64,000 nt of DNA from Marinomonas foliarum. Its GTDB lineage: Bacteria; Pseudomonadota; Gammaproteobacteria; Pseudomonadales; Marinomonadaceae. Below are positions 16,491 to 38,924 of the stretch, piece after piece; within the stretch, counting starts at the first letter, position 1, and each line of letters starts with the position of its first letter. A model generated the notes under the pieces. That model ran no database searches. It worked only from the letters and a program-made list of their open reading frames with translations, and was not told where the DNA came from. The stretch is taken from contig NZ_QPJQ01000004.1 in the NCBI RefSeq assembly GCF_003337275.1, positions 1 to 64,000 of the forward strand, read 5' to 3'. The position numbers and the translations under genes are program-made.

Positions 16491-19400
16491 TTAGCCATCA
16501 ATGTTGATACTGTACTCTTCGTTGTTGTAGATAACTTTAATAGAGTCGCTTGAACTAAAGTTAGATTCTTCACCAAAGTTGGCAACATCTTCACTATCTA
16601 CTTTGACACTGCCATCCGTCACTTTTACATGTTCAGATAAGAATGCCGTAACTGCGTCAACATCTGCATCTTTATCAGGACTGCCCTCTATACCAACCAA
16701 CAAATCAGTCAAATCAAGTGCATCTTCCGCCACATTAAAATCAGTTATTGTATCTATATTTGAACTATTTGTTACGTCATTCAATATAAAGATATCGTTA
16801 CCTGCCCCACCTGTCAGGATATCAGAGGCTTCATCATCGCCACCAAACAATACATCATCACCCGAGCCGCCTAATAATGTATCTTCGCCTGAAGCACCCT
16901 CTAGATAATCATCATTGATACCGCCAACAATAACATCCTCATCTGACGTCCCTACTAGCTTGTCATGCTGTCCATCGGTATTAATTGAAGCTGTTAACTC
17001 AAACTCTTCAATATCACTTTCTGATTTACTGACAACGGTTAGATCATCGATAGCAGTTGCTCCATTAGCTACTTGAACAGTATAACTACCGTCTTGATTC
17101 ACCTGAATATCCTGACCTGACTGAAGTAATTTGGCACCTTCAGGAACACCAAAGATATCTACGGTAGATATCACTTCCGAATCAGAAAGATTCTCAACAC
17201 TCACTTGAACTTTAAAGTATGGAGCAGAGCCATTATTGGTTGAATCAAATGCTGAACTATCACCTATTACTGAGCCGTCAGAAAATTTGATGTTCTCAAA
17301 GTTAACAAAACGCGATCTAATTCCATCTTTATTCCAATAGTAATCAGACATCGAATAGGATTGAAACCATACAGAGTCAGAACCCTGTCCGCCATCGACC
17401 CATGCTGAACTTGATACTGCTCCACCAACCACTAATAGGTCATTACCAGAACCAAGATTGATCGAAACGTTTGCAGCAATATCACCACCAATCTTTAGCG
17501 TATCATTACCACTACCTAACTGTATGTCTGCGCCATACCTAACATCATCACCAATCGAGACAAAATCATCGCCGGAGCCGGAATGCACAGTAGAGTATTT
17601 GTTGACATCATCTTCGATGATCAGCTTATTATCACCATCGCCTAGATTAATATGCGCACCTGCTGAATCATTGCCTAGATCGTTGCCGATCTGAACTCGA
17701 TCGTTCCCTTCACCAGTTTGTATAGTGCTGTGTACATTATCTTTGACAAAGATATCATCATTACCACTACCTGTTTTGATACCTGCTTCACCATTTCTAT
17801 TTACATCGTCTCCAACATAAATCGAGTTATTCCCATCTCCTGCATCCAGCCATTTTTCAACATCATTATCAATAACAATTTGGTCATTACCTGAACCAAA
17901 CTGCTGCCATTGATCATAATTGTAATCTTGGTAAGTTGCAGAATCTATGACATCAGATTTAGACCCAAAACCCTCCCAGTTCGACTTAACTTCAGTAATA
18001 GTTACCATAACATTTGCAGCGTCACTCGCTGCATTTACAGCAATTGTAGCAGTGGCAGTATCATAACCCCCCTGACCGTCCGTAATTGTGTAATCAAATG
18101 AAGCACTACCCATAAATCCAGCTTTTGGTGTGAATACGATATCACCGTTAGAGTTAATGTAAGCATAGCCATTCTGAGCATTACTTACGCTCGTTACAGT
18201 CAAAGTATCACCATCAGCGTCTGTATCGTTTGCAAGTAAACTATCCGTACTTATCACCAGACCTTGCTCTTCTGAAGTAGTTAATCCAGCCTCACCTGTA
18301 GAACTCAACATTGAAGAATCAATAACAAAATACGTTGCTCCGCCGTCAGAGCTCAAGGTTGGCTGGAATACATAATCTCCACCTTGATCCCACCAAACCA
18401 TATCAATAGCATGATAGCCAGACTCGCCAATAGTGAAAGCCTGATGAGTAGTAGTATTAGACGTTTGATTATTATCAATAGTCGCTACCGCTTCTCCGTC
18501 AATATTTATCTGATAACCATCATCAGCAATTACTTTAAAGTTATACGTTCCAGCGGCTAAATACACATATCCTTTGAGGTAAATACCACCATCCGTATTG
18601 TCACCAGGATCTGCACTTAATGTACTTGAATCTGATCCCAAGAAAGTTTGCAAATTAGAGCCTTTGGCGACATCACCTGAACCAGGACCGTAGTTGACAT
18701 TTGAAGCTTTAAACGTAGCGTCTGGTTCTTTGCTGTCAATAAGCGCTTTAAAATCACTGATACTATTAATCTGTGAATCAGTACCGTAATACTCACCAAC
18801 AAGACCAGCAAACAGAGCACCAGAAGAACCATCGTCCTGAGCTTGAGGCGCTGTATTAGTGCCTACACTGATAGTTAAACTAGCAGAGGAACTACTACCA
18901 TCAGAGTCTTGTATCATGTATGAGAATGTCTCAGTAGCACCACTTGGAATACTAGAAACACCAGCTGTCACTTTGTAGACATAGCTGCCATCATCATTTA
19001 ATACCAAGTCTCCGTACTGCCCATGAATACTTTGACCCACATTAGTATCCGTTAAAGTAACCGTATCACCAGGAGCAACACCAACGACAGTTACCGAACC
19101 ATCTTCACTAAGCTCATCAGCCCCTAATCCATTGTCATCAAGAACATTACCTGTTGTTTCTGGCAAACTGTAACCAGCGCCTTCAACAACACGAACAACC
19201 AACTCATAGCTTGTTGCAGCATTTTCAGCCGTATGAATAGAGGTCACCACTGGACTATCAGGATCACTAGCATCCTTAAAGCCAACAACTTGCAAGGTAT
19301 AAACCTCGCCTTCCCACTCAAACGTCACAAAGGTATTTCGAACAGTTACAATGTCTTTTGAAGCTTCTGCATCATTGGTATTTGGCGTCTCATTATGATC

Positions 19401-22400
19401 AAAATTCACCGTTAAACTAACAGGCTCTGTGACACCTTTATTATCAGTCACAGAAAAACCGACAACCATTGATGCTTCACTGATCGCACCACCCTCATAA
19501 ACTGGATAGTTGTAATGAGTAAAGGTACCAATGACAATGTCTTCGTTAAGATCAAACTGACCATTTAATCCAGCATCGTTATCAATAAAACCATAGCCAG
19601 ACTGAAGGTTTGAACTATCTGCCGAACTACCCCAACGAATTTGATCCTTGCCTAAATCATTATCTAATCCTCCAAGCTGAGAAGTCCCATCAAAAGTCTT
19701 AACATCCGAACCGTTCTGATAGCTTACCCAGTTTGCTTCAATGTCAGTAACTTCAAACGTCTCACGTTGAACAATAATGCTATCTTCATCATTAATCGCA
19801 ACAGGCGCAGAATCTTCAACATCAACCTTAATTGTAAATGTCCGGCCATCATCAAGTGTCACTGTCACACTATCTTGGTCAGAAACATTATCACCATGAT
19901 CACGAACAGGTGCTTCATATTCGTAATCACCATTTTCTTTCAGTGTTATAGTAGCGCCAAAATCCGTTGTGACTTGAGTAACACCATCAGGGAAGCGGAA
20001 CCCTTCAGGAAGATCTGTCAGCACCACACTCTGACCTTCATCAGCAGACAAAGTCACCTCGGCTGACAAGTCAACAACATGAGTAGAAACACCAACACTC
20101 TCAACTGTATTACCAGCATCATCTCTTGATGTGACAACTACTTGGAACTCAGTATCAGCCGCCAAATCACTGCCAGCGACAGCAAGTACCCAAACACCAC
20201 CAGTGGCAACTGTTGTTGAATATTCCTTATTATTGATGGTCATCTTAACCACATCACCAACAGAAATATCACCACCTGTTGCAGTACCGGAAACGGTAAC
20301 TGTTTGACCTAACTCAACACCATCAATTTTATCATCAGAAGTAATTGGGTTAATGGCCACCGTACCCGCATCCGCTTCCAGATCGACCGAATGAGTTGAA
20401 GTCGCTTTGCTCTCGACTGTGTTTCCAGCCGCGTCTGAAGACGTCACGACAACCTCGAACTCGGTGTCCGCCGCAAGGTCTGCACCCGCAACATTCACTG
20501 TCCAGTTACCATTCGCATCGACGGTGGTGTCGTACTCTGTACCGTTGATCGTCATGGTCACAACATCGCCTTCTGCGATATCGCCACCCAATGCTTTACC
20601 ACTAATTGAAATCGTATCAGCAGCAGCCTCAGTAGCATTAATCACATCATCACTAGTAATTGGATCTATAGTTACAGAATTCACATTAACAGTAACGGTT
20701 GAAGTATCTGCACCACCTTTACCATCACTAATTGAGTAATTAATAGTAGCGGTCCCACTAAATCCTACGGCTGGAGTAAATACCAACTCATTATTAACAA
20801 TAGTTACCGTGCCTTGAGATTGATTAGATACAAAAGCATCAATGATGGTTAAAGAGTCACCCTCTGCATCAGTATCATTAGCTAAAGCATCTATTGTGAT
20901 AGATCCGCTGTTAGTAGAAGTACTCACTAAGTCAGCAGTAGCAATAGGCGCGTCATTCGTACCCGTCACGGTAATCGTTAAGGTCGTTGTGTCGGTCGCA
21001 TTTTGGTCGTCGGTCACGGTCACTGGGATTTCAAGAACCAGTTTCTCGCCTTCTTCCAAGCTGTCGTAAGACGACGCATCGAAGCTGTAAGAACCGTCTT
21101 CGTTCAACGTCAAGCCTTCCACTGTTGAGGTCGTGCTGAACGTTAAGCTCGCATCGTCCGCAAGATCCACATCGCTGGCACTGATGGTGCCGGTGATGGT
21201 CGCGTCTTCTGCCACCGCACCCGTTGCCGCTTCCGCGACTGGCGCGTCATTCGTACCCGTCACGGTAATCGTTAAGGTCGTTGTGTCGGTCGCATTTTGG
21301 TCGTCGGTCACGGTCACTGGGATTTCAAGAACCAGTTTCTCGCCTTCTTCCAAGCTGTCGTAAGACGACGCATCGAAGCTGTAAGAACCATCCGATTTCA
21401 AGATTAAACCAGTGGCCGTAGAAGTGGTGGTGAAGGTCAAACTTTCAGAGCCAGGAAGATCCACGTCATTGGCATTAATCGTCCCTGTAATAATACTGTC
21501 TTCCTGAACGGCACCCGTTGCGGCTTCAATGGTTGGTGCATCGTTCGTGCCCGTTACTGTGATGGTTAAGGTCGTAGTCGCGGTAGCGCCTTGATCGTCT
21601 TCAACGGTCACAGGCACGGTGATTACTTGTGTTTCGCCTGCTGACAAACTGTCGTAGGACGATGCATCGAAGCTGTAAGAGCCATCCGATTTCAAGATTA
21701 AACCAGTGGCCGTAGAAGTGGTGGTGAAGGTCAAACTTTCAGAGCCAGGAAGATCCACGTCATTGGCATTAATCGTCCCTGTAATAATACTGTCTTCCTG
21801 AACGGTGCCCGTTGCGGCTTCAATGGTTGGCGCATCATTGGTTCCTGTTACAGTAATAACCAATGTTCCAGTACCTTTGTCTCCTTGATCATCAGTAGCT
21901 ATAACATCAATTGAAATTTCTTTTATTTCACCTTCTTGCAACGAGTCGTAAGAAGATGCATCAAAACTATACCTGCCATCATCATTAAAAGTCAGGCCAG
22001 CTACGGTAGATGTGGTTTCAAATGTCAAAGATTTACCGGCGGGTAAATCTACATCTGTAGCACTTACCACACCATTTATTGTGAAATCTTCGGTTACAGA
22101 AGCACTTTGGCTCACTACTACAGGAGCTTGGTTTACCATATGAGTTGAAGAACCAGTTGTGTCAACTGTGTTTCCAGCTGCATCTTCCGAGCTCACAACC
22201 GCGTCGAACGCGGTGCCTGCGTCTGCCGCAAGATCAGAACCCGCCACGTCAACAGACCACGTGCCATCGGCACCTACTGTCGTTGTGTAAGTCTGGTTGT
22301 TGATTTCAAGCGTAACCGTATCGCCTTCTGCGATGTCGCCACCTGTCGCCGTACCTGTGACCGTGATTGTACCTGCAGCTTCAGTGGCGTTGATCACGTC

Positions 22401-25145
22401 ATCAGCAGTAATATTATTTACTGTTACAGCACCTTTATCTGCGGCCAAATCAACGCGATAAGTGTGAGAATCTGTTGCTTCACCACGATTACCATTGCCA
22501 TCATAGACGTTGACTTTACCTTCTACGGTTAAGTCTTCATCACTCGTTAGTTCACTAGCGTCTAGCGTAAGACTATAAGAACCATCTGGAGATACTTTTA
22601 AAGAATGGTCTTTACCATTAACAGTTAGGGTTACGATGGCTAATGAGTAACCGACACCTGTGACTGTACCGGTAATAGTAATTGAGCCAGAAGATTCATA
22701 GTTATTAATGACATTGTCTTGTGTAATGTTGTCAATACTAAGCTGGGCATCCAATGTTGCTGGAGTGTCGTTATCAAAAATACGAAGAGAACCTTGAGCA
22801 TCTCCTAATACAGCATTGCCCGTGAGATTGGACAAGGTAACAAATGCCATCTCCATATCTTCAATTTCAAGATCATCGGTGATGGCAATTCGGATAGTTT
22901 TTTCTGTTTCACCGGGGGCAAAAGTAACTGTTCCTGCATAATCAGTGTAATCAAGGCCGGCTGTAGCGCCCACACCAATAGTGTCATAATCGACCGAAAC
23001 TTCAGTGTCTGACGCAGGATCTAGAGAAATAGTGAATTCTGCGTATTCTTGACCTTCAACAGCGTAAACAAAATCAATAGAAACTGCTGGTGTCGTATTC
23101 TCTATTTCATCGTTATCTTCGATAGCAAAGGTAACATCTTCGTCATAGAAGTTATCACCTGTTATCGTGGCATTAAAATACTCTGTGCCCTCCACTTCGA
23201 CATCATCAAAAATAGGTATACGAACCTCAAGAGAGTCACTACCTGCTGGTAATGTCATTCCAAATGTAGGCCATACATCTCCATTGTCTTTAAACTCAAC
23301 GGAGGTTAAAGACACAGAAACCCAAGTTTCACCACCATCAGTCGAATATTCAATTGGCATTAAATAGTCATCTGCGTATTCGGCAATTGGCATCCCTAAT
23401 TCCGCACTAAGCTTCTCACTTGTAAAAGTAATATTAAGAGTTTGATCTTCGTCAAAAGATAAAGTGCTTGAAAGGGTAAACTGATTGTAACCATCACCCT
23501 CAGAGACGGATTGAACATCAGTTGAAAGATGAGATTTATGAGTATCTAGCGCAGAAGAAGTTACTTCTTGCGAAACAGTCCAATCCTCTACTCGATAATT
23601 AAGACTTAAACCTTCAAGATCATATTGATCAACACCGTCATTCAATTTAATCGTGTAGGTGCCATCTCCATTATTAACCAGAGTTCCAATATTTTCGTAA
23701 GCACTCGATAAGCTAACATTGGAAACAAGTAAGTTTTCTGCAACGACTTGCTTAGCAATAGCACCAACCAATAGATCACTGGCAGAAAAAGTAATTTCTC
23801 CATCTAATTCACTGTAGTTATATTGAACCGTACCACCAGGCACACTGATAGTGTCCACTGTACGCTCATCAAAATCAGCGGGAGCCCTGTCACCAGCTAA
23901 GTCAGTAATTGTGTCAGTAACGTGATCTATTGCATCACTTTCAAATACGTTTTGCCCGGTTCTGTCAGAAAGTTCACTTTCTCTAGTAAATACTATGCCA
24001 ACGTGAGCAAGCGCGTCAGAAAGCATTTGTTTGCCGGCTTCACTAAGCGTTAGCGAGTAATCAGCAAAAGCATCCCGCATCTCTTGAGTAATAGTAATGA
24101 CACTTCCTGATGTCGGCATGTTTACTATGTCGTTTGTATTTAATACACCATCAGAACTATCGCTATCTTCCAAACCGTCACTAATGGCTTGTAAGAAAAT
24201 AGCCATGTTCTCTACATAATTCGAATTAGTATCAGATAAAGCCACTTCAGCAATATCTTGCAGAAACAATATATCGCCCAGAATAACAGAAGATGGAAAT
24301 TCGGCTATTACCACTGCGCCAACAGAAAATGTAATCGTATCACCATCATTATATTTGAAAGAACCATCAGATCCTTGGTCACCCGTTAGACCAGATAAAC
24401 CGCTGGAGGTAGAGTACGAAACACCATTTACTAAGCCATCGGCAAATTGAGCAACATTAACTTCAGAGCCAGAGCCAGAGCCAGAGCCAGTTCCAGTTCC
24501 AGTTCCAGTTCCAGTTCCAGTTCCAGTTCCAGTTCCAGTTCCAGTTCCAGTTCCAGTTCCAGTTCCAGATTCATCATTTGAAGAGACATTCTCTTGAGAT
24601 CGTTTCGACGGAGTTCCTATTGAAAAAGATGCTCGCTGGACACCTTGACCACCATTTACACCTGTGTCGTAACCGTAAGTTGGCAGTGTGCTCAGCGTGT
24701 CATTACCGAAAGTAGGAAGTGCAGCATTATCATTGCGGTCAACATCGACATCGAATCGCTGTTGCTGTTCTGTTTGAGCTTCACCCGCAGCCGGAGCATC
24801 TTGAATTAAAGTAGGGTCATCACCTGCTAAAATAGCGGCTTGTAATGCTTCTATATCTGTAGAGGAATCTGCAACAAGCTCGTCGTTATCACCGGTGTTA
24901 TAGATTTCATCTGTGATTTCGACAATAGAATCGCCCCCAATCACCACATCAGTACCATCATTGAAAGCGATGGTCACAGTAGCATTAGCACCAGTCAAAA
25001 CAGTCTCACCAAAGAAGATCGGGTCGCCAATTTTAACAATACGCTCTTGCCCATCAATAGATTGAACCGTTACCGAACCTGAAAGCTTGGCAATAGTACC
25101 GATTGCATTACCTATTGTTGCAAATGATGTTTGATTGTCGCTCAT
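16491..25145 (-). CDS. Giant LapA-like RTX adhesin with PA14 domain
   Basis: 2884 residues, predicted type I-secreted, cell-surface-retained adhesin. The N-terminal ~125 residues look like a retention module with a di-alanine LapG-type cleavage site (DAPAAGE, about 117-123). A (Gly-Thr)13(Gly-Ser)3 linker follows at about 195-226. Then come a 230-540 region of mixed repeats, Calx-beta-like domains (545-800), Ig-like repeats, four 98-residue VCBS units (1009-1400), a cadherin-like unit, more Ig-like repeats, and a possible choice-of-anchor-type domain around 1800-2000. A PA14 domain lies at 2112-2277 (GLVGEYYGTD, AGTYNFKVIADDGYQINIDG). GSGND-type calcium repeats are at 2416-2586 and classic RTX nonapeptides at 2729-2786 (GGSGDDVLFGG), followed by a secretion-type C terminus. 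PA14 domains of Marinomonas adhesins bind sugars. No T1SS, LapD or LapG gene is in the window. RBS AAGGTAAG is 4 bases before the ATG. Confidence 0.93.
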   Translation of the reverse strand: MSDNQTSFATIGNAIGTIAKLSGSVTVQSIDGQERIVKIGDPIFFGETVLTGANATVTIAFNDGTDVVIGGDSIVEITDEIYNTGDNDELVADSSTDIEALQAAILAGDDPTLIQDAPAAGEAQTEQQQRFDVDVDRNDNAALPTFGNDTLSTLPTYGYDTGVNGGQGVQRASFSIGTPSKRSQENVSSNDESGTGTGTGTGTGTGTGTGTGTGTGTGTGSGSGSGSEVNVAQFADGLVNGVSYSTSSGLSGLTGDQGSDGSFKYNDGDTITFSVGAVVIAEFPSSVILGDILFLQDIAEVALSDTNSNYVENMAIFLQAISDGLEDSDSSDGVLNTNDIVNMPTSGSVITITQEMRDAFADYSLTLSEAGKQMLSDALAHVGIVFTRESELSDRTGQNVFESDAIDHVTDTITDLAGDRAPADFDERTVDTISVPGGTVQYNYSELDGEITFSASDLLVGAIAKQVVAENLLVSNVSLSSAYENIGTLVNNGDGTYTIKLNDGVDQYDLEGLSLNYRVEDWTVSQEVTSSALDTHKSHLSTDVQSVSEGDGYNQFTLSSTLSFDEDQTLNITFTSEKLSAELGMPIAEYADDYLMPIEYSTDGGETWVSVSLTSVEFKDNGDVWPTFGMTLPAGSDSLEVRIPIFDDVEVEGTEYFNATITGDNFYDEDVTFAIEDNDEIENTTPAVSIDFVYAVEGQEYAEFTISLDPASDTEVSVDYDTIGVGATAGLDYTDYAGTVTFAPGETEKTIRIAITDDLEIEDMEMAFVTLSNLTGNAVLGDAQGSLRIFDNDTPATLDAQLSIDNITQDNVINNYESSGSITITGTVTGVGYSLAIVTLTVNGKDHSLKVSPDGSYSLTLDASELTSDEDLTVEGKVNVYDGNGNRGEATDSHTYRVDLAADKGAVTVNNITADDVINATEAAGTITVTGTATGGDIAEGDTVTLEINNQTYTTTVGADGTWSVDVAGSDLAADAGTAFDAVVSSEDAAGNTVDTTGSSTHMVNQAPVVVSQSASVTEDFTINGVVSATDVDLPAGKSLTFETTSTVAGLTFNDDGRYSFDASSYDSLQEGEIKEISIDVIATDDQGDKGTGTLVITVTGTNDAPTIEAATGTVQEDSIITGTINANDVDLPGSESLTFTTTSTATGLILKSDGSYSFDASSYDSLSAGETQVITVPVTVEDDQGATATTTLTITVTGTNDAPTIEAATGAVQEDSIITGTINANDVDLPGSESLTFTTTSTATGLILKSDGSYSFDASSYDSLEEGEKLVLEIPVTVTDDQNATDTTTLTITVTGTNDAPVAEAATGAVAEDATITGTISASDVDLADDASLTFSTTSTVEGLTLNEDGSYSFDASSYDSLEEGEKLVLEIPVTVTDDQNATDTTTLTITVTGTNDAPIATADLVSTSTNSGSITIDALANDTDAEGDSLTIIDAFVSNQSQGTVTIVNNELVFTPAVGFSGTATINYSISDGKGGADTSTVTVNVNSVTIDPITSDDVINATEAAADTISISGKALGGDIAEGDVVTMTINGTEYDTTVDANGNWTVNVAGADLAADTEFEVVVTSSDAAGNTVESKATSTHSVDLEADAGTVAINPITSDDKIDGVELGQTVTVSGTATGGDISVGDVVKMTINNKEYSTTVATGGVWVLAVAGSDLAADTEFQVVVTSRDDAGNTVESVGVSTHVVDLSAEVTLSADEGQSVVLTDLPEGFRFPDGVTQVTTDFGATITLKENGDYEYEAPVRDHGDNVSDQDSVTVTLDDGRTFTIKVDVEDSAPVAINDEDSIIVQRETFEVTDIEANWVSYQNGSDVKTFDGTSQLGGLDNDLGKDQIRWGSSADSSNLQSGYGFIDNDAGLNGQFDLNEDIVIGTFTHYNYPVYEGGAISEASMVVGFSVTDNKGVTEPVSLTVNFDHNETPNTNDAEASKDIVTVRNTFVTFEWEGEVYTLQVVGFKDASDPDSPVVTSIHTAENAATSYELVVRVVEGAGYSLPETTGNVLDDNGLGADELSEDGSVTVVGVAPGDTVTLTDTNVGQSIHGQYGDLVLNDDGSYVYKVTAGVSSIPSGATETFSYMIQDSDGSSSSASLTISVGTNTAPQAQDDGSSGALFAGLVGEYYGTDSQINSISDFKALIDSKEPDATFKASNVNYGPGSGDVAKGSNLQTFLGSDSSTLSADPGDNTDGGIYLKGYVYLAAGTYNFKVIADDGYQINIDGEAVATIDNNQTSNTTTHQAFTIGESGYHAIDMVWWDQGGDYVFQPTLSSDGGATYFVIDSSMLSSTGEAGLTTSEEQGLVISTDSLLANDTDADGDTLTVTSVSNAQNGYAYINSNGDIVFTPKAGFMGSASFDYTITDGQGGYDTATATIAVNAASDAANVMVTITEVKSNWEGFGSKSDVIDSATYQDYNYDQWQQFGSGNDQIVIDNDVEKWLDAGDGNNSIYVGDDVNRNGEAGIKTGSGNDDIFVKDNVHSTIQTGEGNDRVQIGNDLGNDSAGAHINLGDGDNKLIIEDDVNKYSTVHSGSGDDFVSIGDDVRYGADIQLGSGNDTLKIGGDIAANVSINLGSGNDLLVVGGAVSSSAWVDGGQGSDSVWFQSYSMSDYYWNKDGIRSRFVNFENIKFSDGSVIGDSSAFDSTNNGSAPYFKVQVSVENLSDSEVISTVDIFGVPEGAKLLQSGQDIQVNQDGSYTVQVANGATAIDDLTVVSKSESDIEEFELTASINTDGQHDKLVGTSDEDVIVGGINDDYLEGASGEDTLLGGSGDDVLFGGDDEASDILTGGAGNDIFILNDVTNSSNIDTITDFNVAEDALDLTDLLVGIEGSPDKDADVDAVTAFLSEHVKVTDGSVKVDSEDVANFGEESNFSSSDSIKVIYNNEEYSINIDG
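20947..22122 (-). repeat. Four 294-bp tandem repeats encoding VCBS domains
   Basis: Units begin at 20947, 21241, 21535 and 21829, exactly 294 bp (98 codons) apart. Units 1 and 2 are identical over their first 149 bp. Units 2 and 3 are nearly identical over about 120 bp of their second half. The fourth is more diverged. This mosaic suggests recent duplication or gene conversion. Confidence 0.9.
24469..24564 (-). repeat. Hexanucleotide tract, 16 units, encoding Gly-Thr/Gly-Ser linker
   Basis: Three ccagag units and thirteen identical ccagtt units on the plus strand. Each adds two residues, so slippage would change linker length without shifting frame. Confidence 0.92.
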
Positions 25146-33335: not shown

Positions 33336-34403
33336 CTATTGCGCTGCAAACGCCTTCGCGGATGCGATAAACGCCTCAACCCCTTCTTTTGGTGTTCTGA
33401 ACGACGTCACCAATCGAATCACTCCTTCCTCCCAACGACCGCCGTAAAAACCAAAACCTTCAGCTTGCAGATGGTCAATCATTGGCAATGGCAAGGTGCA
33501 AAACAGCATGTTCGCTTGAGCTGGCGTATTAATTTTCACACCAGGAACGGTTTTCAAGCCGTCTTGCAACAAAGCCATCATGGCATTGGCATGAGTCGCA
33601 TTCGTGCGCCACAAATCATCCGTTAGATAAGCAATCAACTGAGAAGACAGCAAACGCATTTTGGAATGCAAATGACCACCACGTTTGCGACGATAACCCA
33701 ACTCTTTCGCTACCTTTTCGCTAGAAATCCCTTTGTCTTCCAAAGCTTGTTTGAACACAACAATGGCTTCTGCCGCCATCACACCATTTTTCGTTGCACC
33801 AAAAGACAAAATATCGATACCTGCTTTCCACGTCATTTCCGCGGGCGTACAACCCAAAGCAAGCAAAGCATTGGCAAAACGCGCCCCATCCATATGAACA
33901 GGCAAATTAACCGATTTCGCCACGCTCGTAATGGCGTGTATTTCTTCTAACGAATACACACTGCCCACTTCAGTGACTTGTGACAAACTGATCGCCGAAG
34001 GCTGGCATGAATGCACATCTCCGATTTTTTGATTGACCAATTTTTGCAACTGAACAGGGTCCATTTTCGCATCTTCGCCACCAATACCGACAAAACGCGC
34101 GCCACTGGTATAAAACTCCGGCGCGGTACACTCATCATTCAATAAGTGACTTTCTGTGTGACACAACACACTGCCCCAAGGTGGCGTAAAGGCGCTGACT
34201 CCTAACGAATTCGCGGCCGTACCAGTAGAAACCAAAAACACATCGACTTCACATTCAAACAGTTCCGACAACATACGCGTAACTTGCGCCGTGCCATCAT
34301 CATTACCGTACGGCATGGCATCGCCTTGCGCGGCTTCCAACATGGCTTTAAATACGGCATCCGACGCACCGGCAATATTGTCACTGGTAAACGCAACCTT
34401 CAT
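33336..34403 (-). CDS. ltaE: Low-specificity L-threonine aldolase
   Basis: 355 residues, fold-type I PLP enzyme of the beta-eliminating lyase family; cleaves threonine/allo-threonine to glycine and acetaldehyde. Signature GNDDGTAQVTRM near 33-44 and the PLP lysine Lys205 in SFGATKNGVMAAEA. MDGARFANAL at 171-180 contributes the PLP aspartate. Single gene. Confidence 0.87.
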   Translation of the reverse strand: MKVAFTSDNIAGASDAVFKAMLEAAQGDAMPYGNDDGTAQVTRMLSELFECEVDVFLVSTGTAANSLGVSAFTPPWGSVLCHTESHLLNDECTAPEFYTSGARFVGIGGEDAKMDPVQLQKLVNQKIGDVHSCQPSAISLSQVTEVGSVYSLEEIHAITSVAKSVNLPVHMDGARFANALLALGCTPAEMTWKAGIDILSFGATKNGVMAAEAIVVFKQALEDKGISSEKVAKELGYRRKRGGHLHSKMRLLSSQLIAYLTDDLWRTNATHANAMMALLQDGLKTVPGVKINTPAQANMLFCTLPLPMIDHLQAEGFGFYGGRWEEGVIRLVTSFRTPKEGVEAFIASAKAFAAQ

Positions 34404-34578
34404 TGAATACTCCTTAAATCAATTTATTTCATTTCAATGAGTAACATCATGACAGCGTTTAAATACGAGCGCTTGGATTTTTGTGCAACGTAGAAAAAAC
34501 AAAAACAGCACCCTCCTCAAAACTAAATGGAGAAAGTGCCGTGAGTTGCTTGAAGAATTAACAGAGAAGAAAAGCTAT

Positions 34579-35718
34579 TTACTGAGTTTTAAGCACGACC
34601 GTGGCTTGCAGACGACTCTGCCCAAAGCGTGACATTTTTTCAAACTCATCTCGAGCAATCGGCACAAATTGACAATCCAGCGGGCTTGGTGGATCGTCAG
34701 GTAATTTTTTATCATCGTCCAAATCCGGATCATGCACCAGAATGCAATGTTCGTCGTAGCCCGACATCACTACCCAATGAGGGGATTTTTTTCCGTCCAT
34801 ACGAAAAGTACTGATTAAGATAATCGCCAAAGCGCCAGAGTCGAAAGCTTCGATCAATTGCTCTAACGGCATCGCTGTATAATGTAAGGGAACATCGGCT
34901 TCTTCGCATTGCTGAGCAAAGCTTTCATGCACGCGAGTTATAACGTTTTTCTTTAACTCGTTACGCACGCTATCAACAAATAATGGCCCCTCTTCGCTCA
35001 ACCAAACATCCGCAGACAAACCACGCTTCTCCGCCGCCAAAGCCAATCCCATAGGATGACAACCGCCATGACCAGACGTCATAAAAATCGTCGTCGCTTC
35101 ACGCCAAATTTCTAACTCATCGTTTGGCGTTGCTTGATAATCTGGATGCATCGAAGACAACACCATTTGCAACGACGCAGGCCCGCACGTAAATGGCGTG
35201 CCTTGCGCTAACCAAGGAATCGCTCTCGTGGTTTGCTCGTCACCGGCATGACGCAAACGTTTCTGCATACGAATCGCATCGGTTTGATCTTCATAATAGG
35301 CATCATAATGACCAAATTCCTTGTAACCCATTTTTTGATACAAGGCGATGGCATTGTGATTCACATCACTGACTTCCAAACGTAGCAACATCTTGCCTTT
35401 TTTAAGGGCCTTTTTTTCACAGGCTTGGATCAGTAATTTGCCAATACCAAGACCACGCGCCTCAGGAGAAACCGCAAGCGAATACAAACGCGCCAAGTGA
35501 GTACCTTGACGAAGGTGCAATAAGGCATAACCCAACAGCTCGCCGCCTTCCTTCATTGCCACAAATAATGCCGAGCCAGAACTGGTAATAGCATTACGAA
35601 AGCTACGGCGACTCAAACGATCGCCAGTAAAGGCTCTGCCCTCCAAAACGAGCAAGGCTTTTAAGTCGTCTATACTGGCTAAACGTATATCAATATTTGG
35701 GGAAGAACTGGTGATCAT
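34579..35718 (-). CDS. GNAT acetyltransferase fused to C39-like peptidase
   Basis: 379 residues. Residues 9-150 are a GNAT domain of RimI type (ARLYSLAVSPEARGLGIGKLL at 76-96 holds the acetyl-CoA loop; ALYQKMGYKEFG at 125-136). Residues 165-375 are a papain-like C39 domain with Cys178 (FTCGPASLQM), His314 (SPHWVVMSGYD) and Asp330 (VHDPD) in the right order. The fusion is known in many marine gammaproteobacteria, but its substrate is unknown to me. It is divergent from a RimK-like ATP-grasp gene, a recurring partnership that hints at peptide or protein modification followed by cleavage (inference). Confidence 0.87.
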   Translation of the reverse strand: MITSSSPNIDIRLASIDDLKALLVLEGRAFTGDRLSRRSFRNAITSSGSALFVAMKEGGELLGYALLHLRQGTHLARLYSLAVSPEARGLGIGKLLIQACEKKALKKGKMLLRLEVSDVNHNAIALYQKMGYKEFGHYDAYYEDQTDAIRMQKRLRHAGDEQTTRAIPWLAQGTPFTCGPASLQMVLSSMHPDYQATPNDELEIWREATTIFMTSGHGGCHPMGLALAAEKRGLSADVWLSEEGPLFVDSVRNELKKNVITRVHESFAQQCEEADVPLHYTAMPLEQLIEAFDSGALAIILISTFRMDGKKSPHWVVMSGYDEHCILVHDPDLDDDKKLPDDPPSPLDCQFVPIARDEFEKMSRFGQSRLQATVVLKTQ

Positions 35719-35819
35719 TACATCGCCTCAGAAGGGCAAAAGGTCGCTAGGATCGTCGAACTGAAAACAGTTTAACGATGGAAATTTTCGCGCATTCTAG
35801 GGCGAAACTTACCTAAAAG

Positions 35820-35870
35820 ATAGTCTATTTTTTCATCAAAAAAACATTTGATTTTTTCATTTTAGACTAT
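35820..35870. promoter_or_regulatory. Inverted repeat in the divergent GNAT-C39/RimK promoter region
   Basis: Perfect 8-bp arms ATAGTCTA (35820-35827) and TAGACTAT (35863-35870) enclose AT-rich DNA with a second dyad (ATCAAA/TTTGAT) and a repeated ATTTTTTCAT. It is centred between the two divergent genes and is a candidate shared operator. Confidence 0.45.
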
Positions 35871-35990
35871 TGTTTAATCAGTTGAAGAAGCGCATTATCC
35901 GCACAAATTGAGGGTACTTTTTAACCCCCCTTTTTAAAGCAACTTTTACAAACTCATAGTGTTTTTTAAGCAAAAGGAAAAGCATACCCA

Positions 35991-37469
35991 ATGTCACAGA
36001 CTTACATTGTTGTTGATCAGGCCAAAGATTGGTCCGCGTTTTTACCTAGTGATCGAGTGATCACTTTTACTCAATACCTAAACTTGGCCGCGACAAAAAA
36101 CCAAGGACGCACACGAATCATCAACCTATGTAAAAGCAGTAAATATCTGTCTGACGGATATTACTGTTCGCTGTTGGCAGAAAGTCGTGGTCATCACGTT
36201 ATGCCTTCTGTGCGCGTGCTGAACGACCTAAGCAAAAAAGACCTATATGAGTTAGAGATCTCTCAGTGGTTACCATTGCTGGCAAAAAAACTCGCCAAAC
36301 CAGAAGCACCGATGGAAATGAAATTCCATTGCGTATTCGGCAAAACCATTCATCCAGAGATGAAGGAATTCGCACGCAAATTATTCGAGAGTTTTCCTAG
36401 CCCTGTATTGGAAGTAACTTTGAAATTCCGCAAAGAATGGCAAGTCACCGCCCTCTTTTCTACATCACAAAGTAAACTGAACGACGCAGAAGAAACATTA
36501 TTCGCCGAATCTTTGGAAGCTTTTAGCAACAAGGTATGGAGCAAAGGCCGCATTCAACGCGCGGCGAAATTCGATATGGCAATTTTGGTTAACCCAGAAG
36601 AAGCCATGCCGCCAAGTGATGACCAAGCGATTAAAAAGTTTATCCAAGCTGGCAAGCAACTTGGTATACACGTGGATACCATTGGACCAAAAGACATCAT
36701 GCGCCTGCCTGAATACGATGGCCTGTTTATTCGTGAAACCACCAACATAGACCACCACACCTACCGCTTCGCTAAAAAAGCCGAAGGCTTAGGCTTAGTT
36801 GTGATGGACGACCCACAATCTATCATGCGTTGTACCAACAAAGTTTACTTGGCAGATTTGTTTAACACACACAAAGTACCTTGCCCAAAAACACGCATCG
36901 TACACAAGGGTGAAGACAACGTAGAAGACGCATTGGAAGCTGTCATCAGCTACCCAATGGTGGTAAAAATTCCTGATGGCGCGTTTTCTAAAGGCGTTAT
37001 AAAAGCAGAAAACCGTGAAGCTTTGACCGAAAGCTTGAACACCTTGTTTAAAAAATCGTCTTTGCTATTGGTTCAAGAATACCTATACACAGAATTTGAC
37101 TGGCGTATCGGCGTGCTTAACAACAAACCGATCTTTGCTTGTCGTTACTACATGGTGAAAAACCACTGGCAGATTTATCAACACACAGGCAGTAAAAGCC
37201 AAAGCGGTGGCTTTGATACCTTACCAACCTTCGAAGTGCCACGACGCGTGCTACAAGCCGCCATCGCTGCCACTAAGCCAATTGGTGAAGGCTTATACGG
37301 CGTAGACGTAAAAGAAATTAACGGCCGTGGTTACGTTATCGAAGTTAACGACAACCCAAGCATAGACCGCGGCGTAGAAGACAAATACCTAGGCGATGAA
37401 CTCTACATGCACATCATGTCCGAGTTCTTGCGTCGTATGCAGGTAAAACGTGGCGATATTCACGCTTGA
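35991..37469 (+). CDS. RimK-like ATP-grasp ligase
   Basis: 492 residues: an N-terminal ~190-residue domain specific to this subgroup, then an ATP-grasp fold (about 250-485) with VKIPDGAFSKGVIKAENRE, LVQEYLYTEFDWRIGVL and the metal-binding VIEVNDNPSIDRG. RimK-type ligases add glutamate or other amino acids to carboxyl termini. This longer subgroup has no assigned substrate that I can name. Divergent partner of the GNAT-C39 fusion; followed by a strong terminator. Confidence 0.87.
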   Translation: MSQTYIVVDQAKDWSAFLPSDRVITFTQYLNLAATKNQGRTRIINLCKSSKYLSDGYYCSLLAESRGHHVMPSVRVLNDLSKKDLYELEISQWLPLLAKKLAKPEAPMEMKFHCVFGKTIHPEMKEFARKLFESFPSPVLEVTLKFRKEWQVTALFSTSQSKLNDAEETLFAESLEAFSNKVWSKGRIQRAAKFDMAILVNPEEAMPPSDDQAIKKFIQAGKQLGIHVDTIGPKDIMRLPEYDGLFIRETTNIDHHTYRFAKKAEGLGLVVMDDPQSIMRCTNKVYLADLFNTHKVPCPKTRIVHKGEDNVEDALEAVISYPMVVKIPDGAFSKGVIKAENREALTESLNTLFKKSSLLLVQEYLYTEFDWRIGVLNNKPIFACRYYMVKNHWQIYQHTGSKSQSGGFDTLPTFEVPRRVLQAAIAATKPIGEGLYGVDVKEINGRGYVIEVNDNPSIDRGVEDKYLGDELYMHIMSEFLRRMQVKRGDIHA

Positions 37470-37488
37470 TAAGCAAGCACTCTAGAAA

Positions 37489-37520
37489 CAAAAAAGGCGA
37501 CTGATGAGTCGCCTTTTTTG
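37489..37520 (+). terminator. Terminator after the ATP-grasp gene
   Basis: Perfect 14-bp arms 37489-37502 and 37507-37520 with a GATG loop, ending in a T-run. Confidence 0.9.
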
Positions 37521-37587
37521 TTTAGTCCCTTCCCTTTTTGTCTTCAAGGGGAAGGCGGAGGATGGGGTTGTTTTTTTGACTAGATAA

Positions 37588-37853
37588 TCACTTTAAAAGC
37601 ACAAACATCGCAAAGACAGCCACTGAAATAACAAACATACAAAGCACTCTTAACAACAAACGCCTAAACAAGCTTTGTACATATTTCAAGAAAAGCTTGT
37701 CCACCAAAAGGAAACCTAAAGCACTCACTATCCCAGATGGCACACCAAAATAGACAGCAATAACTGGCCAACCTGTATGATCGTCATTCCTAAAACAATG
37801 GCAACAGCTAACCATACAAAGTGTTGAGCACTGATAGACAAGGTGATTTTCAA
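37588..37853 (-). pseudogene. Small two-helix membrane protein gene, apparently frameshifted
   Basis: In one frame, from a TTG at 37853 preceded by AAGGTAA, the sequence reads LKITLSISAQHFVWLAVAIV, then LGMTIIQVG, a plausible first helix. In another frame, from about 37770 to the stop at 37588, it reads VYFGVPSGIVSALGFLLVDK and ends in a second helix (VLCMFVISVAVFAMFVLL). Joined near codon 28 they make one ~88-residue membrane protein; neither frame alone looks complete. An ATG at 37815 opens the second frame but yields a non-hydrophobic start. Either a mutation, a sequence error or a programmed shift. Confidence 0.5.
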
Positions 37854-38054: not shown

Positions 38055-38924
38055 TTGGTAAACATAGAACAAATAAAAGGAATGATAAGCTACGAGTTTT
38101 TCAGTATTGCAGGTCATTCCATGACGGTCGGTGGGGTGCTACTTATCCCCGCAATGGCCTTGATTGGTTTTTGGGCAACGAAGTATTTAGTGCGTTTTCT
38201 AACAACAAAGTTAACCAAACGCAATGCTGATCCGAACATCATTCACCTTGTTCGTCGCCTTTTATATGCCATTGCGATCAGTATCATTGCGATCACTGTA
38301 TTAGACATTATTAATGTGCCGATTACGGCCTTTGCTTTTTTGTCTGGTGCAATTGCCATTGGTTTTGGTTTCGGTGCGCAAAACATCATTAATAACTTCA
38401 TCAGTGGTTGGATTTTGATGTGGGAAAAGCCAATACGTATTGGTGACTTTTTAGAAGTAGAAAATGCCAAGGGTGTCGTAGAAGAGATCAACACTCGCTC
38501 GACGCGATTCCGTCGCACTGATGGTGTACATATGCTGATTCCCAACAGTAAGCTACTAGAGAATACAATTGTGAACTGGACCTTGGTCGACAAACTAATG
38601 CGTACATCAGTCAAGATAGGCGTTGCCTACGGCTCTCCTGCAAAACAAGTAGCCAAATTGATTCTTCAAGCCGTTGAGGAACAAGATAGCGTGTTAAGCA
38701 ACCCTCCACCGCAAGTTATCTTTGAAGACTTTGGCGATAACGCACTTATTTTTGAAGTGAATTTTTGGATACAATCCAACGTGGAAGGCGGATTACGTAT
38801 GGCGAAAAGTAATGTTCGTTTCCGCTTAGACGAATTACTCGCCGCCAACAAGATTGTCATCGCCTACCCTCAACGAGACGTTCATATCGATGGCAGCTTA
38901 AAGCTCCTAAAAAGCGAAGCTTAA
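38055..38924 (+). CDS. MscS-family mechanosensitive channel
   Basis: 289 residues: three membrane segments (about 18-40, 68-88, 95-118), the pore helix AFLSGAIAIGFGFGAQNIINN followed by FISGWILMWEKPIRIGDFLE, and a soluble beta domain. This is the compact MscS architecture, opening under hypo-osmotic stress. The start codon is TTG, with AGGAG seven bases upstream. Terminated by a strong hairpin. Confidence 0.9.
   Translation: MVNIEQIKGMISYEFFSIAGHSMTVGGVLLIPAMALIGFWATKYLVRFLTTKLTKRNADPNIIHLVRRLLYAIAISIIAITVLDIINVPITAFAFLSGAIAIGFGFGAQNIINNFISGWILMWEKPIRIGDFLEVENAKGVVEEINTRSTRFRRTDGVHMLIPNSKLLENTIVNWTLVDKLMRTSVKIGVAYGSPAKQVAKLILQAVEEQDSVLSNPPPQVIFEDFGDNALIFEVNFWIQSNVEGGLRMAKSNVRFRLDELLAANKIVIAYPQRDVHIDGSLKLLKSEA

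Follow-up and report, generated by a model that had tools for sequence, protein, structure and literature searches.

Linked RLAN-RimK ligase and GNAT acetyltransferase genes in Pseudomonadota, a candidate pathway for an acetylated short peptide

The window studied here is a 64,000-nucleotide stretch of the Marinomonas foliarum genome (contig NZ_QPJQ01000004.1, positions 1 to 64,000). It carries a gene for a RimK-like ATP-grasp ligase with an additional RLAN domain, which faces a gene whose product joins a GNAT acetyltransferase to a C39-like domain of family DUF3335 (GNAT-C39). Comparison among Pseudomonadota indicates that, very probably, the ligase and the GNAT genuinely work as a unit. What accompanies the ligase almost constantly is the GNAT; the peptidase-like domain is an optional add-on. 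Our preferred reading, to which we assign a probability of about 0.45, is that this pair forms the two-enzyme core for synthesis, plus turnover, of an N-alpha-acetylated short peptide.

Linkage of the ligase to its acetyltransferase partner

Gene linkage was examined in a class-level sample of 143 genomes and a phylum-level sample of 299 Pseudomonadota genomes. In the phylum-level sample, RLAN is present in 56 genomes (about one-fifth), DUF3335 in 47 and both in 46, and the two lie no more than 4 kb apart in 44 of the 47 genomes that carry DUF3335. The exceptions are one genome that lacks RLAN (G148) and two in which the genes are apart (G147 and G328). Fisher's test for co-occurrence gives p = 4e-43, a value that ignores relatedness and is overstated by clusters of near relatives in the sample (family f166 and genus g222). 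In the class-level sample, RLAN is found in 34 genomes and full DUF3335 in 23; each of these 23 also has RLAN, and the genes are adjacent in all but one (G060), where they are on separate contigs. A weak C39 match (E 1.7e-5 to 1.9e-4) occurs in four more genomes of this sample. The original prediction for this locus, made from the DNA alone, held that ligase, acetylase and peptidase-like enzymes belong together and that the two genes are conserved as a pair. Adjacency in 44 of 47 and 22 of 23 genomes bears out the pairing, and the enzyme activities are predicted.

The arrangement of the genes varies. Among mapped loci, the GNAT or GNAT-C39 gene and the ligase gene are divergent in 81, co-directional with the GNAT first in 24, co-directional with the ligase first in one and convergent in three. 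All 24 pairs with the GNAT first have operon-like spacing, with gaps of -8 to 66 bp. Linkage that persists through such rearrangement is strong evidence of shared function. A chance neighbourhood of two unrelated housekeeping genes might be argued from the three of 47 genomes in which the genes are separated or no ligase is present, and from three further unlinked DUF3335 copies in two genomes (G332 and G409). However, divergent, co-directional and convergent layouts all keep the genes side by side, and Fisher's test, uncorrected for relatedness, gives the very low p value quoted above. We reject this explanation as extremely improbable on the strength of the phylum-level linkage, the varied adjacent orientations and the partner counts that follow.

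There are 59 RLAN loci in the phylum-level sample, and DUF3335 lies beside 44 of them. In 43 of these 44, the sequence shows DUF3335 fused to a GNAT (39 of the 40 loci fetched for this check, plus the window and loci of G277, G086 and G072), and in the other one (G336) a contig end interrupts the locus. Of the remaining 15, 14 pair the ligase with a stand-alone GNAT from the same family, and the locus as fetched contains no C39 domain; one (G328) lacks both. Thus, a partner GNAT adjoins the ligase in 57 of the 59 loci, and the verified fusion supports the view that ligase and GNAT are the core pair. A profile of the GNAT domain scores fused partners at 165-225 bits and stand-alone partners at 130-182 bits; seven other GNAT loci of the M. 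foliarum genome, including its RimI-like gene, reach at most 46 bits.

We also surveyed named ligase loci, taking the best 80 matches listed, whose proportions lean towards the type seen in the window. GNAT-C39 is the partner in 43 of these, 11 of which also have a DUF2817 gene; 28 have a stand-alone GNAT and nine have no partner, with a contig end within 1.5 kb on at least one side in five of the nine. Among the named matches listed, Lysobacterales (Dyella, Rhodanobacter and Lysobacter) often have the stand-alone form. Overall, a GNAT without C39 is the partner in 43 of 129 labelled ligase loci, and C39 is fused to the GNAT in 66 of 109 labelled GNAT-paired loci. The accessory domains are interchangeable, and the proposal that the peptidase is a part of the unit holds for conserved adjacency but must be softened, because the C39 domain is optional.

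Among GNAT-bearing loci, a ligase tree of 129 rows requires the C39 domain to change six times. On GNAT trees, the switch between GNAT-C39 and GNAT needs four changes, and few of these map to branches with good support. A weakly supported split (59) separates the partner GNATs, 105 in all, from five other GNATs of the genome. In one genome (G147), a GNAT-C39 gene with DUF2817 and DUF155 genes (L173:5574-8794) lies far from the ligase, which adjoins a stand-alone GNAT (L169). As this layout demonstrates, core and accessory module need not stay together.

Predicted activities at the Marinomonas locus

The two genes and the domains on which the proposed activities rest are as follows.

34579..35718, minus strand: GNAT-C39 fusion gene, 379 amino acids (open reading frame list; PF11814 277 bits, Acetyltransf_1 72 bits)
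35242..35700, minus strand: GNAT domain, residues 7-159 by structure, with the fold of protein N-alpha acetyltransferases
34588..35220, minus strand: DUF3335/C39-like domain with Gln172, Cys178, His314 and Asp330 (Pfam and conservation)
35185..35187, minus strand: codon of predicted catalytic Cys178, read off the sequence (62/62 Cys in the alignment)
34777..34779, minus strand: codon of predicted catalytic His314, read off the sequence (62/62 His)
34729..34731, minus strand: codon of predicted catalytic Asp330 (61/62 Asp, 1 Glu)
35991..37469, plus strand: RLAN-RimK ATP-grasp ligase gene, 492 amino acids (open reading frame list; Pfam)
36069..36509, plus strand: RLAN domain, residues 27-173 (PF14401)
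36837..37370, plus strand: RimK-like ATP-grasp domain with K284, K326, R372, D439, E451 and N453 (PF08443, residue mapping and fold match)

Both genes are intact, located as originally predicted, and run in opposite directions with 272 bp between them. The minus-strand protein matches DUF3335 at residues 167-377 with 277.2 bits, and the plus-strand protein matches RLAN with 158.9 bits, both against a gathering cut-off of 25. The RimK family match spans residues 283-460 of the ligase, and a RimK-like middle part lies between RLAN and the ATP-grasp domain. AlphaFold2 models have a mean predicted local distance difference test score of 92 for the GNAT-C39 protein and 88 for the ligase. Marinomonas rhodophyticola has a ligase with 98% identity to this one. 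A phage origin of the GNAT-C39 gene was rejected, as nothing in a collection of 50,697 phage records matched it.

RimK K100, K141, D248, E260, N262, R64 and R189 correspond to ligase K284, K326, D439, E451, N453, R248 and R372, each of which is retained in 64 of 64 aligned ligases. Of these, K284, K326, D439, E451 and N453 match the ATP-grasp catalytic residues. RimK H215 is His in 52 of the 64. By contrast with these kept positions, RimK R203 and R211 are replaced by invariant Tyr386 and Gln394 (64/64), the latter within an invariant His-Trp-Gln-Ile motif at 392-395. R216 is not kept, S68 is mostly Ala (Ser in 12/64), and S7, R8 and S14 fall outside the alignment. The mapping around ligase positions 386-400 comes from a single gapless stretch of a low-identity alignment. 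In section 13 of PMC10092738, R64, R189 and N262 of RimK are described as touching the poly-Glu chain, and R211, H215 and R216 as residues of the substrate loop. The contact and loop residues compared were taken from that source, except R203, which we picked ourselves.

A fold search with the ligase places D-Ala-D-Ala ligase (Ddl) first by E-value, followed by RimK, with higher TM-scores, and by ArgX/LysX. The score against the NCBIfam model rimK_fam is 79.2 bits, below its cut-off of 143.4. Judging by its residues, the ligase looks active, with a predicted pocket that is only partly that of RimK. The description of the enzyme as being of the glutamate-adding type is not established: the catalytic residues, R64, R189, N262 and mostly H215 are kept, which is compatible with a Glu substrate, but R203, R211 and R216 are lost and the family score falls short. 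Naming glutamate as the substrate would be a guess from family membership. This mixed result slightly weakens the argument against RimK-like chemistry, which is already allowed for in our estimate for protein modification given below.

The GNAT domain, searched as residues 7-159 only, is closest to the fold of protein N-alpha acetyltransferases. RimI (5isv and 2cnm) and Ard1 (4pv6) are the nearest structures, and the top five matches have Z scores of 22.0-22.5 with a root-mean-square deviation of 1.5-2.1 over 145-151 residues. Z scores of 20-22 put Ard1, RimI and Naa proteins at the top, and other GNATs, such as PaiA and phosphinothricin acetyltransferase, come next at Z 19-20. The GNAT protein scores 77.9 bits against the NCBIfam RimI model (TIGR01575), below its cut-off of 86.4.

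In the C39-like domain, Gln172, Cys178 and His314 are invariant in a 62-row alignment, and Asp330 is replaced once by Glu. The triad was correctly placed, in order, by the original prediction and is retained in homologues. No match to the C39 bacteriocin-processing peptidase family (PF03412) was found in the GNAT-C39 protein of the window at E 0.001. The best PDB sequence match, to a BtrH-N-like protein, is weak (E 6e-4) and covers 44 of 212 profile positions in the His/Asp segment.

The space between the genes and the region after the ligase gene contain three further features.

35719..35990, no strand: divergent intergenic region, 272 bp (shuffle comparison; alignment with 5 relatives)
35870..35898, plus strand: promoter-like element for the ligase, TTGTTT, 17 nt and CATTAT, with a weak -35 (by eye from the alignment)
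37496..37519, plus strand: terminator-like hairpin and T run 3' of the ligase gene (read off the sequence; absent from the consensus-scan output)

The intergenic region had been called dyad-rich, a description that fails against 500 dinucleotide-preserving shuffles. The observed number of inverted repeats is reached by 81 shuffles for 5-nt arms, 190 for 6-nt, 325 for 7-nt and 216 for 8-nt, so inverted repeats are no more common than by chance and a dyad operator was rejected. The TTG and spacing of the promoter-like element recur, by eye, in five of six aligned sequences including that of the window; the consensus scan did not report the element. Shared control of both genes is plausible from the divergent layout alone. 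An RNA element was rejected as well, because a scan of positions 34300-37700 gave no Rfam match at gathering scores. Elsewhere in the window, downstream of the ligase gene, positions 38055-38924 encode a small mechanosensitive channel of the MscS type, and by far the longest open reading frame, of 2884 amino acids, occupies 16491-25145 on the minus strand.

Neighbouring genes and competing explanations

In nine class-sample loci, the ligase is adjoined by a stand-alone C39-like peptidase and has no partner GNAT. In seven of these, genes for a GCS2 ligase and an N-formylglutamate amidohydrolase-like (FGase-like) protein come next, and one of the remaining two is cut short by the end of the contig. 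We call this arrangement type B. By hhalign, its peptidase and the DUF3335 domain are relatives (probability 97%, E 1e-10), and the eight type B ligases long enough for the tree form a single clade (Shimodaira-Hasegawa-like approximate likelihood-ratio support 100). Directly upstream of one type B operon is a gene for a GNAT fused to a carbon-nitrogen hydrolase domain (L063:8842-10398).

Several other genes are found near the system. DUF155 (RMND1/Sif2-Sif3/Mrx10) genes are located at L047:6578-7372, L068:9302-9778, L093:2734-3492, L099:7519-8271, L104:10331-11089 and L173:8123-8794, and also in L058 and L059. In six of these eight loci, the gene is on the same strand and next to a ligase, GNAT-C39 or DUF2817 gene; a link to translation or to the membrane is possible. 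An ArgE-like M20 gene, considered as a partner, is beside the pair in eight class-sample loci and divergent where inspected, and we read its presence as chromosomal synteny. A Pseudomonas aeruginosa plasmid record carries an RLAN ligase (L191:8911-10500) near pagP, ggt and an amino-acid transporter gene, and a partner GNAT is not annotated in the 19.5 kb around it.

The M. foliarum genome encodes the ribosomal counterparts of both enzymes elsewhere. A canonical RimK of 301 amino acids aligns to Pseudomonas RimK over its whole length; its gene overlaps an AstE/AspA-like gene by one base (L184:1210-3164). A RimI-like protein scores 82.5 bits, just under the 86.4-bit cut-off. The S6 gene is also elsewhere, and its product has an acidic tail ending in SEEVSEESED. 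Since RimK, the RimI-like gene and S6 are separate in this genome, the pair studied here is probably not an S6 or S18 modifier, and we rejected this as its main role.

In the pathway that we favour, the RLAN-RimK ligase would use ATP to activate a carboxylate as an acyl-phosphate and couple an amino acid to it. With acetyl-CoA, the RimI-like GNAT would then acetylate the alpha-amine left free. In loci that have them, the C39-like domain, by thiol chemistry, and the DUF2817 hydrolase-like protein might cleave, trim or transfer the product. We infer that the product is a small peptide, that ligation would precede acetylation, and that the C39 domain would act on the same product as the other two activities. 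The GCS2 and FGase-like partners of type B belong to small-molecule families and, in seven class-sample loci, support a small-molecule product. The separate RimK, RimI-like and S6 genes count against a ribosomal-protein role. For another ATP-grasp family, a linked GNAT has been proposed to cap a peptide, according to a passage of PMC4431377. More broadly, and with somewhat less than even confidence, we picture a widespread Pseudomonadota pathway whose core, an obligate pair of RimK and RimI paralogues, yields an acetylated peptide or a peptide tag. Thiol-peptidase and DUF2817 modules would have been gained and lost repeatedly, and a sister branch has GCS2 and FGase-like proteins instead of the acetylase.

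Several observations weigh against this proposal, and folds and family membership do not in themselves reveal a substrate. In its fold, the GNAT belongs with acetyltransferases of protein N-termini, so that a protein target would suit it equally well or even better. The ligase retains several of the residues with which RimK contacts its chain, which fits a RimK-like protein or poly-Glu product. DUF155/RMND1 genes occur near the system in eight of 137 loci and could point to translation. Finally, two of 33 class-sample ligases and four of 80 named ligases away from contig ends have no recognised partner.

Because of the GNAT fold and the recurrent DUF155/RMND1 neighbour, modification of protein ends is nearly as likely as the acetylated short peptide, and we regard it as a serious possibility at something like one chance in three. 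The ligase would add one or a few residues to a protein C-terminus or side chain, the GNAT would acetylate the tail or an N-terminus, the C39-like domain would reverse the reaction as RimB does for RimK, and RLAN would dock the target. RimI, Ard1 and Naa proteins head the list of GNAT folds, at Z 22, and the ligase resembles RimK and ArgX/LysX, which act on ribosomal or carrier proteins. The retention of RimK R64, R189 and N262 is in keeping with this, and the logic of RimK combined with a protease is established in the part of PMC12239564 consulted. However, the genome already has RimK, a RimI-like gene and S6 elsewhere, the RimK substrate pocket is partly lost, no third protein family accompanies the pair in all the loci that were clustered, and the type B partners come from small-molecule families.

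BtrH has a transfer role in butirosin synthesis. The C39-like domain could by analogy be an acyl- or peptidyl-transferase that moves the ligase product onto an acceptor, with the GNAT as a capping enzyme. The best PDB sequence match of the domain points this way, but the match is short and weak, Pfam calls the family peptidase-C39-like, and a carrier protein or acceptor gene was not found linked; we consider this unlikely. A ribosomally synthesized and post-translationally modified peptide (RiPP) of the graspetide kind, with a leader cut by the C39 domain, is less probable still, and was rejected. Graspetide loci can contain both C39 peptidases and ATP-grasp ligases, as noted in a portion of PMC8939145. 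However, among 4800 small open reading frames (20-89 amino acids) clustered from the surroundings of 129 ligase loci, none is widely conserved: the ten most widespread clusters span at most ten loci each, mostly of close relatives, and look like shadow reading frames of neighbouring genes. The original remark that no precursor peptide is nearby is thus supported as far as tested. The lack of a precursor family despite strong gene linkage, and the unmatched PF03412 in the protein of the window, also speak against a RiPP.

A small acetylated peptide, if that is the product, would be a metabolite not yet recognised in soil and marine bacteria and in methanotrophs. If proteins are tagged instead, this would be a second RimK/RimI-type system beside the ribosomal one. 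Since the GNAT is the near-constant partner, the ligase and GNAT genes are the core to examine first.

Comparison with known systems

RLAN and DUF3335 are already named Pfam families. Iyer and colleagues reportedly predicted, in 2009, peptide-ligase neighbourhoods with GNAT and papain-like peptidases; the neighbourhood of the present pair was probably already predicted at that time. The frequent fusion of DUF3335 to GNAT is noted, with a citation of that 2009 study, in a section of PMC10318531. Calling the system unassigned, as was done originally, is therefore accurate for its substrate and not for its families. An excerpt of a study of Pseudomonas fosmids and pyomelanin (PMC9756463) also lists a GNAT and a RimK family protein whose accession numbers are consecutive. 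The passages of open-access literature consulted contain no statement that C39 is optional and that the GNAT accompanies the ligase almost universally, and experimental work on an RLAN ligase did not turn up in the open-access literature searched.

The ligase resembles RimK, the S6 alpha-L-glutamate ligase that works with RimB and RimA, in its ATP-grasp fold and catalytic residues and in R248 and R372. It differs by the extra N-terminal RLAN domain, by HWQI where RimK has the FRSNLHRGG stretch and by a score under the family cut-off, and a canonical RimK is encoded separately. The partner GNAT shares the fold and the conserved LEV...YY...DA pattern of RimI/Ard1/Naa-type N-alpha acetyltransferases, but it falls below the RimI cut-off, is linked to the ligase and is frequently fused to C39. 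Set beside DUF3335 and BtrH-like papain-fold proteins, the domain of the window has DUF3335 family membership and the C39-like triad, and its match to BtrH-N is weak and partial; it differs from C39 bacteriocin peptidases in having no PF03412 match. The type B operon has the same ligase family and a related peptidase; unlike the pair in the window, it lacks a partner GNAT, and its ligases are one clade on the tree.

A precedent for the product that we propose is N-acetylglutaminylglutamine amide (NAGGN), an acetylated dipeptide amide. In the part of PMC8070244 consulted, Ngg N-acetylates glutamine and joins a second glutamine to it, in an operon that includes a peptidase gene. There, Ngg alone performs both steps and an asparagine synthase (AsnO) follows. 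The GNAT protein of the window scores 30.6 bits against the NAGGN synthetase model (TIGR03103), whose cut-off is 569, and the ligase has no match to this model at E 0.001. The likeness lies in the logic of the two systems, in which N-acetylation, a peptide bond and a peptidase gene come together, in the known case to give an acetylated dipeptide (PMC8070244, same part).

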